Source of the DNA: a virus
DNA: 21,549 nucleotides
Virus record (IMG/VR): IMGVR_UViG_3300017783_002948
Location: 1 to 21,549 of that record
Reading direction: 5' to 3' (one strand)
This document shows positions 3,995 through 21,549 of the stretch, one piece after another; the first letter of the stretch is position 1, and every line of letters begins with the position of its first letter. A model generated the notes under the pieces. That model was not told where the DNA came from. It searched no databases and saw only the letters and a list, made by a program, of their open reading frames with translations. A program made the translations under genes and the position numbers.

Positions 3995-4005
3995 GATATT
4001 TATAG

Positions 4006-6240
4006 ATGGTGGATAAGAATCAGATTATAGAACAAATAATAGAAGAATTGAACTTCCGTTCAAGAGAAGGGTATCCCTTACTTAAAAAATCTTCACATAT
4101 AGAATTACTTAGTGAGATTCTGACCGAATTAGGATTATCATCAATCAAACACGAACTTATTGAAAATCTTTTAATAGAAGATGAAGAAGAACCCTTAGAT
4201 GATAGAGAAAAAGAACGAGCTAAGAAAATGGGGCTTGTTTGGAAAGGTAAAGGATATGGGAAAGAAGAAGATGATTTTATATCTTATAAAAATGATGGTG
4301 GTAAGTTAGTAAAAGTAGATAAAGATGGTGAATCAGAACCTGAAGAAACAAAAACAGCATTTTCGGGTGAAGCTGGTGATGAATTTAAATCACAATTACC
4401 AAAAGAAGACCCAGCATATAAACCATCTGATGTAGATAAAGCTAAAAAGAAAAAAATAATCCCTAAAAAAGTTGATAATACAGAAATAGGTAAAGTTGTA
4501 TCTGAAACTGGAGATAGTGAAGTTAAAAATACAATGTTTGATGAAGGTTATAAGGGATATGAAAAGAAAACAGGTTCAAAACCAGCTCCAGGTGGACCGG
4601 GTTCGGCATTTAATGAAATAGTTTCTGGTGAATTGGTTCTTATATTAGAAAAATATCCTAATACTACTGAAGAAGAGTTAGCAAATTATTCTCACAAAAG
4701 ATTTGGAGGTACAACATTAGGTAAGGAACAAAAAGAAACTGCTGGTATTCCAAAAAATCCTGAGTTAGAAAAAAGAAGAAAAGAGGCAATTGGAAATGGT
4801 AAAGCAAGCAAACCACAATTTCCAGAACAATATAATGAAGTTATGCAGGAAAGAGCATCATACTCTAAATCAAGAGTTTCAGCTCGTTCTGCTATAAAAA
4901 AACATAGAATAACTCAACAAAGAATTAAAAATCTTCAATCAAGTGTTGGGTTTGGTAAAGAAACAAAAACATTTCCATTCTACGGAGCTGATGCTAGTAT
5001 ATCTGCTCAAGTTGATATGGTAAATAACGCAAAAGGAAAAGTTTACTTACCAAATGGAACTGAGGTTGAGAAAGATGATTTAAATGAATTTATAAAAGCA
5101 GGTGGTGGTGGAATGAATCCATCTGATACTGCAACTTTCGTAACTGATGAAAATGGAAATTTATTAGTACAATTCCATAGTGATAAAACTACAACTCAAG
5201 ATATTCAAGATAATTCTACATTAGCGAATGAAGAGAATAACTATAATTCTTACATTGAAAAATCTTTACTAAATGAAGATGATAAAGCTAAAGCTAAAGA
5301 TATCAATAAAGAATATTCTACTAAAATGACCGAAATTGAAGAAAAGTATAATAACCAATCAGTTACTATAGCAAGTAACTTATTAGAATTAGATACAGAT
5401 AAGATAGCAAAAATCATAAGTAACGATAAGGGAACTTTGGTGAAAAATATGGATTATGCTTTATATGGTGAAACTGCTTGGAAAAAGGGTGACTTTACTC
5501 AAATAAATAAAAAATGGGATAATTATTTACCAAAAGGTGTAAAGCCCGAAGATTTAACAAATATTCAAAAAGCAGAAATGATATATAAATTTGCTAATGA
5601 TGGTAATAAGTTAAATGCCCCAATAGTTAAATCAATTAACAAAGTTGCACTACAATATCAAGAAGAAAATCCTACTACAGTTGGATTAGATGTAAAGAAA
5701 CTATTATCTGAACAACGAAGAGAAGTTGTAGAAATGCAAAGAGAAAAAATTCAGGTAATGAATGACTATCAAGCTGATGTAGATGGGGTTAAGGTTGGAT
5801 TGGGTACATTAATGGAAGCAGAAGAAAATATTAGAGGATTTCATTTAACTATGATGGATTACCCACCTAAAGCATATACAAAAGGAAATCCAAATTCAAT
5901 AGCTGGTGCTTCTCTTGATGTAAATATGGGTGGAACTATTGTTAATGGTGAAGTTTTAAGAGGATGTTTGGGTGTAGAAAGTACAACTGAATTTAAGCAA
6001 AAGTTTGAATTAGTAGAAGAAGAAGCTCTAACATATGATAGTAATGAAAAGGATAAAGATGGAAACCCTACTGGTAATGTAACAGGTAAAAAGGTATTTA
6101 CATATGTTGTTGATGGTAGTGGGGGTAAAAAAGAGTTAGGATATAAAACTTATAGAAGTAAAGAAGGTGCTGTAGGAAAGACAAGTAACACAATGACTTA
6201 TTCAACTGAAATGCAGAGTTGTTTCAAATCTAAATCATAA
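4006..6240 (+). CDS. Large charged phage protein of unknown function
   Basis: A 744-residue soluble protein, very rich in Lys and Glu, with no signal peptide, membrane segment or enzyme motif I recognise. Several regions stand out. The N-terminal helical part (1-55) ends in the acidic run EDEEEPLDDREKE. At 69-95 is a KKMGLVWKGKGYG-type motif followed by a DGGKLVKVDKDG repeat, similar to short motifs I associate with structural proteins of marine T4-like phages. A low-complexity linker (100-200) follows. Long helical segments lie at 255-310 and 420-455, probably coiled coil. The C-terminal domain (about 630-744) has LDVNMGGTIVNGEVLRGC and ends with Cys near CFKSKS. A virion or internal head protein is plausible but unproven. 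The ATG at 4006 lies 11 bases after the nuclease stop with no Shine-Dalgarno. Confidence 0.55.
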   Translation: MVDKNQIIEQIIEELNFRSREGYPLLKKSSHIELLSEILTELGLSSIKHELIENLLIEDEEEPLDDREKERAKKMGLVWKGKGYGKEEDDFISYKNDGGKLVKVDKDGESEPEETKTAFSGEAGDEFKSQLPKEDPAYKPSDVDKAKKKKIIPKKVDNTEIGKVVSETGDSEVKNTMFDEGYKGYEKKTGSKPAPGGPGSAFNEIVSGELVLILEKYPNTTEEELANYSHKRFGGTTLGKEQKETAGIPKNPELEKRRKEAIGNGKASKPQFPEQYNEVMQERASYSKSRVSARSAIKKHRITQQRIKNLQSSVGFGKETKTFPFYGADASISAQVDMVNNAKGKVYLPNGTEVEKDDLNEFIKAGGGGMNPSDTATFVTDENGNLLVQFHSDKTTTQDIQDNSTLANEENNYNSYIEKSLLNEDDKAKAKDINKEYSTKMTEIEEKYNNQSVTIASNLLELDTDKIAKIISNDKGTLVKNMDYALYGETAWKKGDFTQINKKWDNYLPKGVKPEDLTNIQKAEMIYKFANDGNKLNAPIVKSINKVALQYQEENPTTVGLDVKKLLSEQRREVVEMQREKIQVMNDYQADVDGVKVGLGTLMEAEENIRGFHLTMMDYPPKAYTKGNPNSIAGASLDVNMGGTIVNGEVLRGCLGVESTTEFKQKFELVEEEALTYDSNEKDKDGNPTGNVTGKKVFTYVVDGSGGKKELGYKTYRSKEGAVGKTSNTMTYSTEMQSCFKSKS

Positions 6241-14189: not shown

Positions 14190-16336
<2,147 letters not shown>

Positions 16337-17122: not shown

Positions 17123-18520
17123 ATGGGAGAACAGGACAATTTATCCAAATTTGGTAATTCATTCCAATCTAAGGTAATATCAGCTTTATTAACAGATGAA
17201 AAGTTTTTAGATAAACTTCAAGAAGTAATATCACCTAAGTTTTTTGAATCGGATGCAAACAAATGGATAGTTGATGAAATTATTGATTATCACGATGAAT
17301 ATAGGAAAGCACCATCAATGGATGTTTTCAAACATAAGTTAGCTACGTTAGATAATGATATTCTTAAAACTACAGTTGTTGAACAACTTAGACACGTTTA
17401 TACTCAGATTGGTAATGTAGATTTAGATTATATCAAAAAAGAATTCACATCTTTTTGTAGAAATCAAAATTTAAAAGGAGTAATTTTACAATCAGTTGAT
17501 TTACTAAAAGCAGGAAACTTTGATAGAATCAAAGATTTAGTAGATAAAGCTATGAAGGTTGGTACTGAAACCGATTTAGGACATGATTATAAGGATGATT
17601 TCATATCTCGTATGGAAGATGTTAAACGTTCAACAGTTCCTTCAGATTGGTCACCTATAAATGATTTAATGGATGGGGGATTAGGACCAGGTGAATTAGG
17701 AGTTGTAGTAGCACCATCGGGTGTTGGTAAAACTTGGATTCTAACTGCTTTAGGAGCATCTGCGGTAAGACAGGGGTTAAGTGTGGTTCACTACTCAATG
17801 GAGCTATCTGAACACTATGTAGGAGCAAGATACGATACAGTATTCTCAAAGATACCATCATCTGATATAAAAGAGAAGAGAGATATAGTAGAAGAAAAAA
17901 TTAGAGGATTAAAAGGTAACTTAATGATTAAGTACTTTCCACCTAAAGGGGTATCCTCAAAAAAGATTGCGCAACACATTGATAAGATGATAGCTAATGA
18001 TAACAAACCAGATTTAATTATATGTGATTATGCTGATTTATTATTATCACATTCAAATAAAACAGATTCGACATATGCAGAGCAAGGTGGTGTTTACATT
18101 GACTTGAGAGGTTTAAGTGGTGAATATGGTATACCTGTTTGGACAGCATCACAAACAAATCGTTCAGCAATAGATTCTGAAGTGATTGAAGCAGATAAGA
18201 TTTCTGATTCATACGCTAAGGTAATGAACGCAGATTTCATTATGAGTTGGAGTAGAAAAGCAAAAGATAAATTGAACAATACTGCTAGAGCTCATATTAT
18301 GAAAAATAGATTCGGACCAGATGGAATTACATTCCCTTGTAAGATGGATACTAATACAGGTTTTATAGAAGTTTATGATGGACAATCATCTGAAGGTATG
18401 TTATCAACTAAGGAATCAGCTAGTGGTGAAAATCAAAGAAAACAATTGTTGCACAAAAAATATGTGGAAAATATGGGCTTTTCGAAGTCTACCACAAATC
18501 AAGAGAGTATGGGATTTTAA
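17123..18520 (+). CDS. 41: gp41-like DnaB-family replicative helicase
   Basis: A 465-residue hexameric 5'-3' helicase, matching T4 gp41 in size (475). The N-terminal helical domain (1-150) precedes the RecA-like motor. Walker A is APSGVGKT (197-204), HYSMELSEHYVGARYD (223-238) is the DnaB-type motif following it, Walker B is LIICDYADLLL (298-308), and PVWTASQTNRSA (338-349) is the sensor/DNA-loop motif. A C-terminal tail rich in Ser/Lys/Gln (about 420-465) would reach protein partners such as the primase, which is not in this window. It has its own promoter P5 and is followed by an inverted repeat region. Confidence 0.93.
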   Translation: MGEQDNLSKFGNSFQSKVISALLTDEKFLDKLQEVISPKFFESDANKWIVDEIIDYHDEYRKAPSMDVFKHKLATLDNDILKTTVVEQLRHVYTQIGNVDLDYIKKEFTSFCRNQNLKGVILQSVDLLKAGNFDRIKDLVDKAMKVGTETDLGHDYKDDFISRMEDVKRSTVPSDWSPINDLMDGGLGPGELGVVVAPSGVGKTWILTALGASAVRQGLSVVHYSMELSEHYVGARYDTVFSKIPSSDIKEKRDIVEEKIRGLKGNLMIKYFPPKGVSSKKIAQHIDKMIANDNKPDLIICDYADLLLSHSNKTDSTYAEQGGVYIDLRGLSGEYGIPVWTASQTNRSAIDSEVIEADKISDSYAKVMNADFIMSWSRKAKDKLNNTARAHIMKNRFGPDGITFPCKMDTNTGFIEVYDGQSSEGMLSTKESASGENQRKQLLHKKYVENMGFSKSTTNQESMGF

Positions 18521-18539: not shown

Positions 18540-18595
18540 TATGTATTCGGATTTTTTTTCTAATATATACTATAGTTATATTCACCGAATACATA
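18540..18595. repeat. Long inverted repeat between helicase and histone-like genes
   Basis: ATGTATTCGG (18541-18550) and its exact reverse complement CCGAATACAT (18585-18594), extended by a T-A pair (18540/18595) and a G-T pair. The 34-base loop is T-rich with ATTTTTTTTC next to the left arm. A weaker hairpin (18523-18541) lies just before. The pair could act as terminator for the helicase unit, as an operator for the histone-nrd unit, or as an mRNA structure. No Bacteroidota-type promoter is evident in this 115-base gap. Confidence 0.6.
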
Positions 18596-18635
18596 TTTTC
18601 GGTATAATTTAAATTAATAAAAAAAGAAAAATTTT

Positions 18636-18806
18636 ATGGCAAATTCACAAGAACTATTCGAACAAATTAAAGAGTTATATACTCAATTCGAAGCAGAACA
18701 CAATGGAACAACAAAAGCAGCTAAATCAAGAGCTAGAAAAGCAATTGGTGAAGTTAAGAAACTTGTAACAGATTACAGAAAAGCATCAGTAGAAGAAAAT
18801 AAATAA
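18636..18806 (+). CDS. Histone H1/HC1-like small basic DNA-binding protein
   Basis: A 56-residue protein. The N-terminal helix is amphipathic and acidic (SQELFEQIKELYTQFEAEHNG), followed by a basic segment TTKAAKSRARKAIGEVKKL and YRKASVEENK. The order, an acidic helix then KAAxSRARKA then ...YRKxSVE, matches the short histone H1-like (HC1-type) proteins of Bacteroidota. They bind DNA and are thought to help compact it. A phage copy could coat replicating or packaged DNA, or compete with the host protein; both are inference. It has an A-rich start region, is preceded by the long inverted repeat, and is 18 bases from nrdB. Confidence 0.72.
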   Translation: MANSQELFEQIKELYTQFEAEHNGTTKAAKSRARKAIGEVKKLVTDYRKASVEENK

Positions 18807-18824: not shown

Positions 18825-19838
18825 ATGAGCAAACTATTTAAAGAACGAATTCCGTTCAAACCATTCGAATATCCAATATATCATACAGAAGGCTGGTTGA
18901 AACAAGCACAGGCATTTTGGTTACATACCGAAATCCCCATGTCAGGTGATGTTAAAGACTGGAACGAAAAATTGACAAATGAAGAAAAGCATTTGGTTGG
19001 AAATATTCTTTTGGGGTTTGCTCAAACTGAATGTGCGGTATCCGATTATTGGACTAATATGGTTACCGATTGGTTTCCTAAGCATGAGATAAAACAAATG
19101 GCGATGATGTTCGGTTCACAAGAAACTATTCACGCTACTGCTTACTCATACTTAAACGAAACATTAGGATTAGATGATTTCTCAGCATTTCTGCATGAAC
19201 CTGCAGTAGCTGAGAAATTTGAACTCCTTACTTCAACTACAGCTAATTGGACACATGAGGATTTAGCAAAGAATCCAAAAGCAAGACAAGAAGTTGGTAG
19301 AAGTTTAGCAATCTTTTCAGCATTCGCTGAGGGGGTATCTTTATATTCTTCATTTGCGGTACTTTACTCATTTCAAATGAGAGACTTACTAAAAGGTATT
19401 GGACAACAAATGAAGTGGAGTGTAAGAGATGAATCTTTACATTCTAAAATGGGATGTCAGTTATTCAGACATATGTGTGATGAATATCCTGAACTATTAG
19501 AAGAATGTAAAGAATCAATCGAACAAGCTGCAAAACTAATTGTAGAACTCGAAACAAAATTTATTGATAAGATGTTTGAAATGGGTAACTTAGAAAATCT
19601 TGATAAAGATGATTTAAAGGAATTCATAAAAGCAAGAACAAATACGAAATTAGCTGAGTTGGGATACAATCCAACAGAAGGTGGAGATTTCTATTTTGAT
19701 TTCAATAAAAAGAAAGCAGAAAAGTTAGAATGGTTTTACCATCTAACGGGTGGACTAACCCATACAGATTTCTTCGCTATCAGACCTACTGATTACAGTA
19801 AGGCAAATGAAGGTGAAGATTGGGGTGATTTATTTTAA
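18825..19838 (+). CDS. nrdB: Class I ribonucleotide reductase small subunit NrdB
   Basis: A 337-residue ferritin-like protein that carries the dimetal cofactor and generates the radical used by NrdA for reducing ribonucleotides. Metal ligands appear as E69 (in GFAQTECAV, an acid where E. coli has Asp84), E100 and H103 in QETIHATAY, E169 in AFAEGVSLY, and E203 and H206 in RDESLHSKMG. The radical-site Tyr is present (Y107), four residues after H103, which argues against the Tyr-less class Ic type. The C-terminus NEGEDWGDLF fits the usual tail that docks to NrdA. nrdA follows after 18 bases, so the two are co-transcribed and would supply dNTPs for phage replication. Confidence 0.95.
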   Translation: MSKLFKERIPFKPFEYPIYHTEGWLKQAQAFWLHTEIPMSGDVKDWNEKLTNEEKHLVGNILLGFAQTECAVSDYWTNMVTDWFPKHEIKQMAMMFGSQETIHATAYSYLNETLGLDDFSAFLHEPAVAEKFELLTSTTANWTHEDLAKNPKARQEVGRSLAIFSAFAEGVSLYSSFAVLYSFQMRDLLKGIGQQMKWSVRDESLHSKMGCQLFRHMCDEYPELLEECKESIEQAAKLIVELETKFIDKMFEMGNLENLDKDDLKEFIKARTNTKLAELGYNPTEGGDFYFDFNKKKAEKLEWFYHLTGGLTHTDFFAIRPTDYSKANEGEDWGDLF

Positions 19839-19856
19839 ACAATTAAATAATATAAA

Positions 19857-21549
19857 ATGGCTAAAAACTACGGCGATGAGCTTGGTTGGGAATTAGGTGT
19901 TGATTTCCCAGAATGGGCAAATACTGAAATCTATGTAAAAACCATCTCAAAAGGTTACTTACTTGAAGGTGAAAAACCAAAAGATGCATATTGGAGAGTA
20001 TCTACTAAGGTAGCTCAAAGATTAAACAAACCACAAATGGCATCAAAATTCTTTGATTACATATGGAAAGGTTGGTTGTGTTTAGCAACACCAGTACTTT
20101 CAAATACAGGTACAGATAGAGGATTACCTATCTCTTGTTTTGGAATTGATGTTGGTGATTCAATATATGAAATAGGTAATAAAAACTTAGAACTAATGTT
20201 ACTTGCTAAACATGGTGGTGGGGTTGGTATTGGTATCAATCAAATTAGACCAGCTGGTTCTAACATTACTGGCAACGGAACATCGGATGGTGTTGTACCA
20301 TTCGCTAAAATATATGATTCTACAATCCTTGCTACAAATCAAGGTTCAGTAAGAAGAGGTGCTGCTTCAGTTAACCTTAATATTGAACATGATGACTTTT
20401 TGGATTGGTTAGAAATCAGAGAACCTAAAGGAGATGTAAATAGACAATCACTTAATCTACACCAATGTGCAGTTGTAGGTGATAAGTTTATGAGAAAACT
20501 TCAAGATGGTGAACCTGAGGCAAGAAGAAAGTGGGGAAAATTACTACAAAAAAGAAAAGCAACAGGTGAACCCTACATTATGTATAAAGGTAATGTAAAC
20601 AAACAAAATCCTGAAATGTATAAAAAGAATGGATTAAAGGTATTTATGACTAATATCTGTTCTGAGATTACTTTACATACAGATGAGAACCATTCATTTG
20701 TATGTTGTTTATCTTCTCTTAACTTAGCAAAATATGATGAGTGGAAAGATACAGACTTAGTTTATACAGCAACTTGGTTCTTAGATGGGGTTCTAACTGA
20801 ATTTATTCAAAGAGCTAAGAATATGAGAGGGTTTGAAAACTCAGTTGCATCTGCTGAAAAAGGTAGAGCATTGGGATTAGGAGCTTTGGGTTGGCATACT
20901 TACTTACAGAAAAATGGTATTCCATTTGAAGGTATGGATGCTCAATATGAAACTCGTAAGATTTTTTCCCAGTTAAAGATAGAATCAGAAAGAGCAAGTA
21001 GGGATATGTCTGAGGAGTTAGGTGAACCTCTATGGTGTAGAGAAAGTGGATTCAGAAATACACACCTTAGAGCTATAGCACCTACAGTTAGTAACTCTAA
21101 ATTAGCTGGTAATGTATCAGCTGGTATCGAACCTTGGGCTGCTAATGTATTCACCGAACAAACTTCAAAGGGTACATTTATTAGAAAAAATACTGAATTA
21201 GAAAAAGTACTTAGAAAAGCAGGTGTTAATAATAAAGATACTTGGGATAAGATAATGGAAGATGGTGGTTCAGTACAAGGAATAAAAGAATTGGATAAAT
21301 GGTGTTTTCTCAATAGTAAAATGGTACTTTGTGAAGAAATCACTAATGGGGATAGACATAAAACATATCCCGTTAAGGATGTATTTAAAACATTTAAAGA
21401 AATTAATCAAATGGATTTGGTCAAACAAGCTGGTGTTAGACAGCAGTATATTGACCAAGGAGTTTCGTTAAATTTAGCATTCCCTTCGATTGCATCACCG
21501 AAGTGGATTAATCAGGTAACAATGGAAGCTTGGAAACAAGGTATTAAAA
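19857..21549 (+). CDS. nrdA: Class I ribonucleotide reductase large subunit NrdA, 3' end cut
   Basis: Open from ATG 19857 to the window end, 564 codons seen. It reduces ribonucleoside diphosphates to deoxy forms with NrdB. Visible active-site residues are C94 in LPISCFG (redox Cys), NICSE at 266-270 with C268 (thiyl radical Cys), and VCC at 282-284 (second redox Cys). PTVSNSKLAGNVSAGIEPW and RQQYIDQGVSLNLAFP are typical later blocks. The N-terminus begins directly with the catalytic barrel, so the about 90-residue ATP cone that senses dATP in E. coli NrdA is absent. The C-terminal Tyr pair and Cys tail lie beyond the window. The order is nrdB before nrdA. Confidence 0.96.
   Translation, partial: MAKNYGDELGWELGVDFPEWANTEIYVKTISKGYLLEGEKPKDAYWRVSTKVAQRLNKPQMASKFFDYIWKGWLCLATPVLSNTGTDRGLPISCFGIDVGDSIYEIGNKNLELMLLAKHGGGVGIGINQIRPAGSNITGNGTSDGVVPFAKIYDSTILATNQGSVRRGAASVNLNIEHDDFLDWLEIREPKGDVNRQSLNLHQCAVVGDKFMRKLQDGEPEARRKWGKLLQKRKATGEPYIMYKGNVNKQNPEMYKKNGLKVFMTNICSEITLHTDENHSFVCCLSSLNLAKYDEWKDTDLVYTATWFLDGVLTEFIQRAKNMRGFENSVASAEKGRALGLGALGWHTYLQKNGIPFEGMDAQYETRKIFSQLKIESERASRDMSEELGEPLWCRESGFRNTHLRAIAPTVSNSKLAGNVSAGIEPWAANVFTEQTSKGTFIRKNTELEKVLRKAGVNNKDTWDKIMEDGGSVQGIKELDKWCFLNSKMVLCEEITNGDRHKTYPVKDVFKTFKEINQMDLVKQAGVRQQYIDQGVSLNLAFPSIASPKWINQVTMEAWKQGIK

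Follow-up and report, generated by a model that had tools for sequence, protein, structure and literature searches.

A short Hc1-family gene without a lysine-rich tail between the helicase and ribonucleotide reductase genes of a virus

Hc1-family (PF07432) proteins are already known from phages, having been reported in the moraphages, a group of aquatic jumbo phages with mostly predicted Bacteroidota hosts, in which the gene is present in four complete genomes (Arch Virol 2025, PMC12619734). The authors suggested a role in genome compaction, while giving the function as unknown (PMC12619734). The moraphage proteins belong to the same Pfam family as the product of the gene considered here, hc1, and both are phage-borne; the passages that describe them (PMC12619734) contain no motif anatomy, tail loss, upstream element or protein tree. 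That paper was the only one found in a literature search on histone H1-like or PF07432 phage genes. The family takes its name from chlamydial Hc1 (HctA), whose N-terminus is described as dimerising and whose lysine-rich C-terminus is described as binding DNA, and expression of which compacts chromatin in Escherichia coli (PMC2848022).

Among individual phages, Synechococcus phage S-SRM01 (MW015081.1) encodes an annotated histone H1 of the Hc1 family (62 aa), which is phage-encoded like hc1 but belongs to a different subfamily (a starred 15-row group in our tree) and has different gene neighbors; no paper joining S-SRM01 and histone was found in a literature search. A hypothetical protein of Flavobacterium phage vB_FspM_immuto (NC_055915.1) is 68.5% identical to the hc1 product over residues 3–56 and falls with it in a common starred clade (99/96), although the immuto gene follows groEL whereas hc1 follows dnaB, and its motif reads KKSQASARK. 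Contigs of the immuto group (L124, L162 and L168) scored 17.8–21.1 bits, below the Pfam Hc1 cut-off, a possible reason for the annotation of such genes as hypothetical. In cells, the Hc1 proteins of Fidelibacterota (Marinimicrobia; L084–L090) are 55–64% identical to the hc1 product and share GExKKLVT(D/E)YRK(A/S)SV with it, but have GNKAAGSRARK or similar where it has GTTKAAKSRARK. The phage proteins T4 MotB and lambda NinH, described as binding DNA or touching the nucleoid, served as a working analogy, with no sequence relationship claimed. The gene described here adds one member to a family with phage copies already reported.

The window, a virus record of 21,549 bases, carries hc1 as an ATG-initiated open reading frame on the plus strand (positions 18636–18806; 56 aa, pI 9.05, charge of about +1.6 at pH 7). 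The initial annotation had described a 56-residue gene encoding an acidic helix, KAAKSRARKA and YRKASVE, and all of these were present: the N-terminal helix has five Glu and one Lys, and precedes KAAKSRARKA (residues 27–36; 18714–18743, plus strand) and YRKASVE (residues 47–53). Its proposal of Hc1-family membership was borne out by a profile search, in which Pfam Hc1 (PF07432) matched residues 6–56 of the protein over positions 2–56 of the 57 in the profile (E = 1.2e-10, 41.5 bits versus a curated cut-off of 23.5), with a concordant genome search. An in-house family profile gave 102.6 bits, versus 16.0 for the best of 10,000 composition-matched shuffles; because that profile was made from the protein's own relatives, the Pfam result is the independent one. 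PHROGs profiles returned only a weak match to a stretch of a DNA-transfer protein (E = 0.029), and NCBIfam profiles none. Judged from these profile comparisons, membership of the Hc1 family is secure.

The label "histone H1/HC1-like" stood as far as the family match goes, but the protein has no lysine-rich tail, and its predicted fold is neither a winged helix nor a histone fold. It stops at residue 56, and its net charge is only about +2. Among 241 distinct relatives (444 hits at 443 loci, with open frames of up to 400 aa admitted), 239 were 40–64 aa long. The frame of one 81-aa relative continues across masked bases, and a 71-aa Hc1 (L236:734–946) ends in a basic extension of 12 residues, a tail seen in no other of the 241. 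We take the 57 positions of Pfam Hc1 to correspond to the dimerizing end of the chlamydial protein. Chlamydial Hc1, as described, has an added lysine-rich DNA-binding C-terminus that the window protein is without (PMC2848022), and the name "histone H1" therefore overstates the latter. The absence of this tail also weakens the earlier suggestion that the protein could compact phage DNA, displace a host chromatin protein or regulate transcription, as far as the chlamydial description extends.

A protein reduced to the dimerization part might act instead as an antagonist of host chromatin, with the phage Hc1 hetero-oligomerizing with host Hc1 and poisoning or redirecting it, in the manner of truncated, dimerization-only proteins of the H-NS type. 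The chlamydial counterpart of the region is described as the dimerization part (PMC2848022), truncated silencers with an N-terminal domain are described as able to be dominant-negative (PMC7074111), and Hc1 is present in the candidate host phyla. However, the cellular copies sampled were equally short and tail-less, so that tail loss is no phage trick, and the basic face of the protein is conserved under purifying selection, which is what retention of the same activity would predict. Moreover, Hc1 was found in only 15 of the 149 genomes drawn from Fidelibacterota, and the target would often be missing if this were the host phylum. We consider such antagonism unlikely, although worth some weight.

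An AlphaFold2 model built from a 101-row alignment predicted a two-helix hairpin with no strand (pLDDT 96.4), comprising an acidic helix 1 (residues 4–22; 18645–18701, plus strand) and a helix 2 (residues 27–54; 18714–18797, plus strand) that bears the conserved residues K27, R34, K35, K42 and R48. The basic residues of helix 2 are directed toward roughly 19 degrees and its hydrophobic residues toward roughly 212 degrees, and in the model this helix appears to have a conserved basic face opposite its hydrophobic packing face. The histone fold has three helices, and the globular domain of eukaryotic linker histone H1 is a winged helix; both were ruled out, the former by the two helices of the model and the latter by these together with the lack of any strand. 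A sequence search of the PDB found no solved relative (sole match at E 0.76), and Foldseek returned nothing at E ≤ 0.001 from two libraries. Among viral predicted structures, the second-ranked match was "Histone H1 [uncultured virus]" (TM 0.90/0.83, but E 0.32), and the VIA-align matches were common hairpins. Since no solved relative was found and the hairpin is a very common fold, the structure says little about function.

Relatives of hc1 were encoded in 282 of the 325 stretches from a scan of IMG/VR, the best 80 of these 282 being 86–100% identical. The window cluster provided 61 distinct nucleotide variants, among which dN/dS averaged 0.118 (1,500 of 1,830 variant pairs sampled, of which 1,377 were usable and 123 had no dS in the accepted range), and variable sites at codon positions 1, 2 and 3 numbered 26, 16 and 50 of 56, respectively. 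By its substitution pattern, hc1 is a real gene under purifying selection. A chance open reading frame or frame artefact was ruled out by this ratio and the Pfam E-value.

Related phages conserve the basic motif, the absence of which would, by the initial annotation's own terms, have refuted its reading. R34 and K35 were invariant in all 101 aligned diverse sequences, the window's included (the 71-aa L236 protein was excluded from 102 listed references, and N-terminal ends of relatives were placed at the nearest Met), and K27, A33, E39, K42, L43 and R48 were kept in at least 90% of rows. Residue 30 is K in the window protein and G in most relatives. All 101 members matched the Hc1 profile at E ≤ 0.01, some of them below the curated cut-off. 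Compared by group (with three of the 241 distinct Hc1 sequences, which had an X or fewer than 50 aa, left out), the immuto group has residues 28–30 changed and R32 lost, and the gene is still kept. Whole-contig searches gave exactly one Hc1 match per contig in 15 contigs of at least 134 kb. Two different copies of Hc1, separated by about 2.7 kb, are encoded on a 30-kb viral contig (L274:1272–1454 and 4001–4168), and both were seen again on the whole record.

The position of hc1 in a phage between helicase and ribonucleotide reductase genes was as first described. A DnaB-like replicative helicase identified by profile scan (17123–18520, plus strand) lies upstream, across a 115-nt gap, the third largest separating window ORFs that were accepted as genes. 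The ribonucleotide reductase small subunit gene nrdB (18825–19838, plus strand) starts 18 nt downstream, followed by that of the large subunit, nrdA (19857–21549, plus strand), which is cut by the window end. The window also encodes a clamp loader, a UvsX-like recombinase and a single-strand binding protein, and no structural gene was recognized among the 20 window ORFs scanned. A full-length phage GroEL is encoded at 14193–15791; none of the 20 ORFs compared with PHROGs gave a match to GroES, which in immuto is next to GroEL. Two tRNA genes, tRNA-Cys (gca; 1180–1251) and tRNA-Arg (tct; 1312–1388), are at the window's largest inter-ORF gap.

This arrangement was largely constant in the 126 loci of the window cluster, 66 of which are distinct when hc1 and the preceding 100 nt are compared. 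The nrdB gene was downstream of hc1 in 102 of the 104 loci with room for it (loci redundant by contig), and the first window gene met within 1 kb upstream was dnaB in 89 of 122. When 80 loci were fetched by DnaB, hc1 was at most 1.5 kb downstream of dnaB in 62 of the 71 assessable, and at least two of the remaining nine carry it further off (L482 and L509). Among 80 loci fetched by NrdB (78 assessable), hc1 was just upstream (≤1.5 kb) in 46 and absent there in 32, and 30 of these 32 contain a dnaB 42–58% identical to the window's. No Hc1 was found in nine of the 32 contigs searched whole (fragments of 20–53 kb). The existence of NrdB loci with and without the gene indicates a gain or loss of hc1 at the site between dnaB and nrdB. 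Other groups have hc1 after groEL (immuto group, 58/58 with room) or after the clamp loader gene (one cluster, 6/6), and most other clusters have no window gene beside it (for example, 77/77 in the cyanophage-type cluster), by a search that used the window's proteins and would miss diverged neighbors; the replication neighborhood is therefore not general. The empty site in 32 of 78 loci would suit a passenger gene acquired from a host and with no role in the phage. We regard this as highly improbable given the low dN/dS, the conserved upstream element and the conserved position.

The region between dnaB and hc1 contains a promoter-like element, ATATACTATAGTTATA (18565–18580, plus strand), that in this lineage occurs almost solely upstream of hc1, and a predicted 5'-leader stem-loop with arms ACCGAA and TTCGGT and an 8-nt loop (18584–18603, plus strand). 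Of the 65 distinct upstream regions that could be assessed, 62 have a ATATAYWATARTTATA-like element ending 31–57 nt ahead of the hc1 start; it is missing from those of L266, L267 and L075, the last of which has a close variant. Across the 126 loci (a redundant 927 kb), every one of the 123 sites of a strict pattern precedes hc1; a slightly looser pattern also gave 123 before hc1, plus three elsewhere, on L029, L069 and L245, the first and last of which belong to a single contig. The DnaB and NrdB scans, whose 160 loci have contigs in common with these 126, yielded 109 sites before hc1 and one on L481, where an hc1 start comes after the element and the contig then ends. There were no sites in the 32 NrdB-fetched loci without hc1, which links the element to hc1 and not to nrdB. 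Within the window, the only mismatch-free match was at 18565; with up to three mismatches there were nine matches, versus 12.1 in shuffles, so that weaker copies are indistinguishable from chance. A general promoter of the phage was ruled out by this sole perfect match and the near-restriction of sites to hc1 in the window-cluster loci. The element and stem-loop were not met in literature listings on histone-like phage proteins, from searches not aimed at them.

The stem-loop was counted in 48 of 62 leaders (shuffle mean 4.0, maximum 10; 200 mononucleotide shuffles). Leaders were of two lengths: a stem of at least five pairs was present in 48 of the 49 that were 51–57 nt long and in none of the 13 that were 31–35 nt long. 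Stem sequences varied (GACCAA/TTGGTC, CTACCAT/GTGGTAG, ACCGAA/TTCGGT, CCACC/GGTGG and others). RNAalifold on a MAFFT alignment of 36 leaders (the window's and 35 distinct upstream regions picked for the element and mostly a stem) found no consensus pair and did not recover the stem-loop, so the claim for it rests on the hairpin counts. We infer that the element is probably a promoter and the stem-loop part of a leader. Together they suggest that an hc1-nrdB-nrdA unit is expressed strongly or with special timing.

The retention of the stem-loop as a structure well above shuffled expectation was also counted in favor of a regulator that binds RNA or acts on translation, perhaps through the stem-loop of its own leader. 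The title of a 1994 study by Pedersen reportedly links chlamydial Hc1 and RNA, and Hc2 is described as binding RNA more strongly than Hc1 (PMC2848022). Ribosomal proteins were among the many hairpin matches (Z near 7), an uninformative level. Against this, the 13 short leaders do without a stem-loop, which is thus not needed in all; the freely varying stem sequence suits an mRNA stabilizer better than a sequence-specific operator; and RNAalifold gave no consensus pair. Regulation of this kind seems to us a poor prospect.

We infer that the likeliest role of the tail-less phage Hc1 is that of an oligomeric, non-specific nucleic-acid-binding architectural protein, to which we assign a probability of roughly 0.5. 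The hairpins would pack against one another, hydrophobic face to hydrophobic face, as dimers or larger bundles in which the conserved basic face of helix 2 stays exposed, and the oligomer would bind double-stranded DNA, and possibly RNA, without sequence preference. Possibly expressed strongly or at a special time from the promoter-like element and leader stem-loop, together with nrdB and nrdA, it may coat or bridge the intracellular phage genome during replication, or occupy the host nucleoid. The position between replication and nucleotide-supply genes, the selection on the gene, the basic face, the Hc1 match and the compaction of E. coli chromatin by chlamydial Hc1 were counted for this reading, and the absent tail, the charge of about +2, the common fold, the loss of R32 in the immuto group and the differing neighbors in other clusters against it.

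Genome size raised the alternative of a virion or packaging protein, packed with or condensing a large genome, as speculated by the moraphage authors. All but one of the 24 phage-collection records found with an Hc1 match are 160–635 kb long (the exception being a 48-kb linear record), window-cluster contigs reach 276 kb (L247), and an NrdB-fetched contig with hc1 is 289 kb (L560). However, the association with genome size is confounded by shared ancestry, and hc1 in this lineage sits among replication and nucleotide genes, with no structural gene recognized in the ORFs scanned; packaging is, in our view, quite unlikely.

An architectural protein of this type would be of wider interest, as the nucleoid proteins that large phages carry give them a means of taking over the host and handling their genomes. 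Several phage groups (the window lineage, the immuto group, Lak phages and the cyanophage type) have the Hc1 domain, with no long tail in the sample. Whether the isolated Hc1 hairpin binds DNA is one question common to all of them, and its answer would also give meaning to the "histone H1" annotations in Bacteroidota.

We assessed what the relatives of hc1 indicate about its host. Five records of the phage collection matched the window protein; with a Fidelibacterota copy as query (E ≤ 1), the 24 records comprised 15 Prevotella Lak phages, four immuto, two S-SRM01 and three others. The nearest isolated phage, vB_FspM_immuto, infects Flavobacterium. An exact-peptide scan of 84,980 species genomes, which picks up close relatives only, confirmed seven relatives from 359 stretches, with contig titles naming Neomarinimicrobiota, Marinimicrobia, TMED46 or an uncultured bacterium; the nearest cellular copies found were those of Fidelibacterota. 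In Bacteroidota, Hc1 copies were found on plasmids (16 records at E ≤ 1, 12 of them annotated as histone H1), and the control genome of Bacteroides ihuae gave an Hc1 profile match.

The tree had 60 rows and was built on 62 columns (60 of 61 clusters, with one of the two L274 copies left out, and no chromosomal Bacteroidota copies). In it, the starred clade shared with immuto-type rows has eight rows and lies inside a 28-row group (90/82, not starred), where every Fidelibacterota row but one is also placed. The plasmid copies from Bacteroidota lie outside it, in two groups. Because hc1 groups with phage and Fidelibacterota copies and apart from the Bacteroidota plasmid copies sampled, it does not identify the host phylum, as had been proposed, and Hc1 also occurs in a cyanophage. 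Comparisons of other window proteins did not settle the host: among the matches listed, GroEL was closest to Bacteroides phages (55%), with four further records at 60–80% over a part, and DnaB to an uncultured phage (47%), a Microcystis phage (43%) and immuto (42%). On sequence relationships, there are at least two candidate host phyla, the nearest cellular copies pointing to Fidelibacterota and the nearest phage to the phylum of Flavobacterium. A broader and rather unlikely proposal is that hc1 is a self-contained cassette (element, stem-loop and tail-less Hc1) setting the chromatin state of infection, in hosts that may be largely uncultured Fidelibacterota, and that the family is chiefly phage-held and exchanged with cells.

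Other members of the family were seen in distinct settings. A Fidelibacterota Hc1 (L086:4001–4177) is near cytochrome c oxidase genes, which marks it as a cellular copy. Bacteroidota plasmid Hc1 genes (L117:2968–3144 and L441:968–1144) are between a topoisomerase-repeat gene and a pair encoding an S24 peptidase and a Y-family polymerase, with one hypothetical gene intervening in this arrangement in L117. A large second phage subfamily is formed around cyanophage S-SRM01 (L112 and L354–L433), for which a relative was encoded in 443 of 475 stretches.
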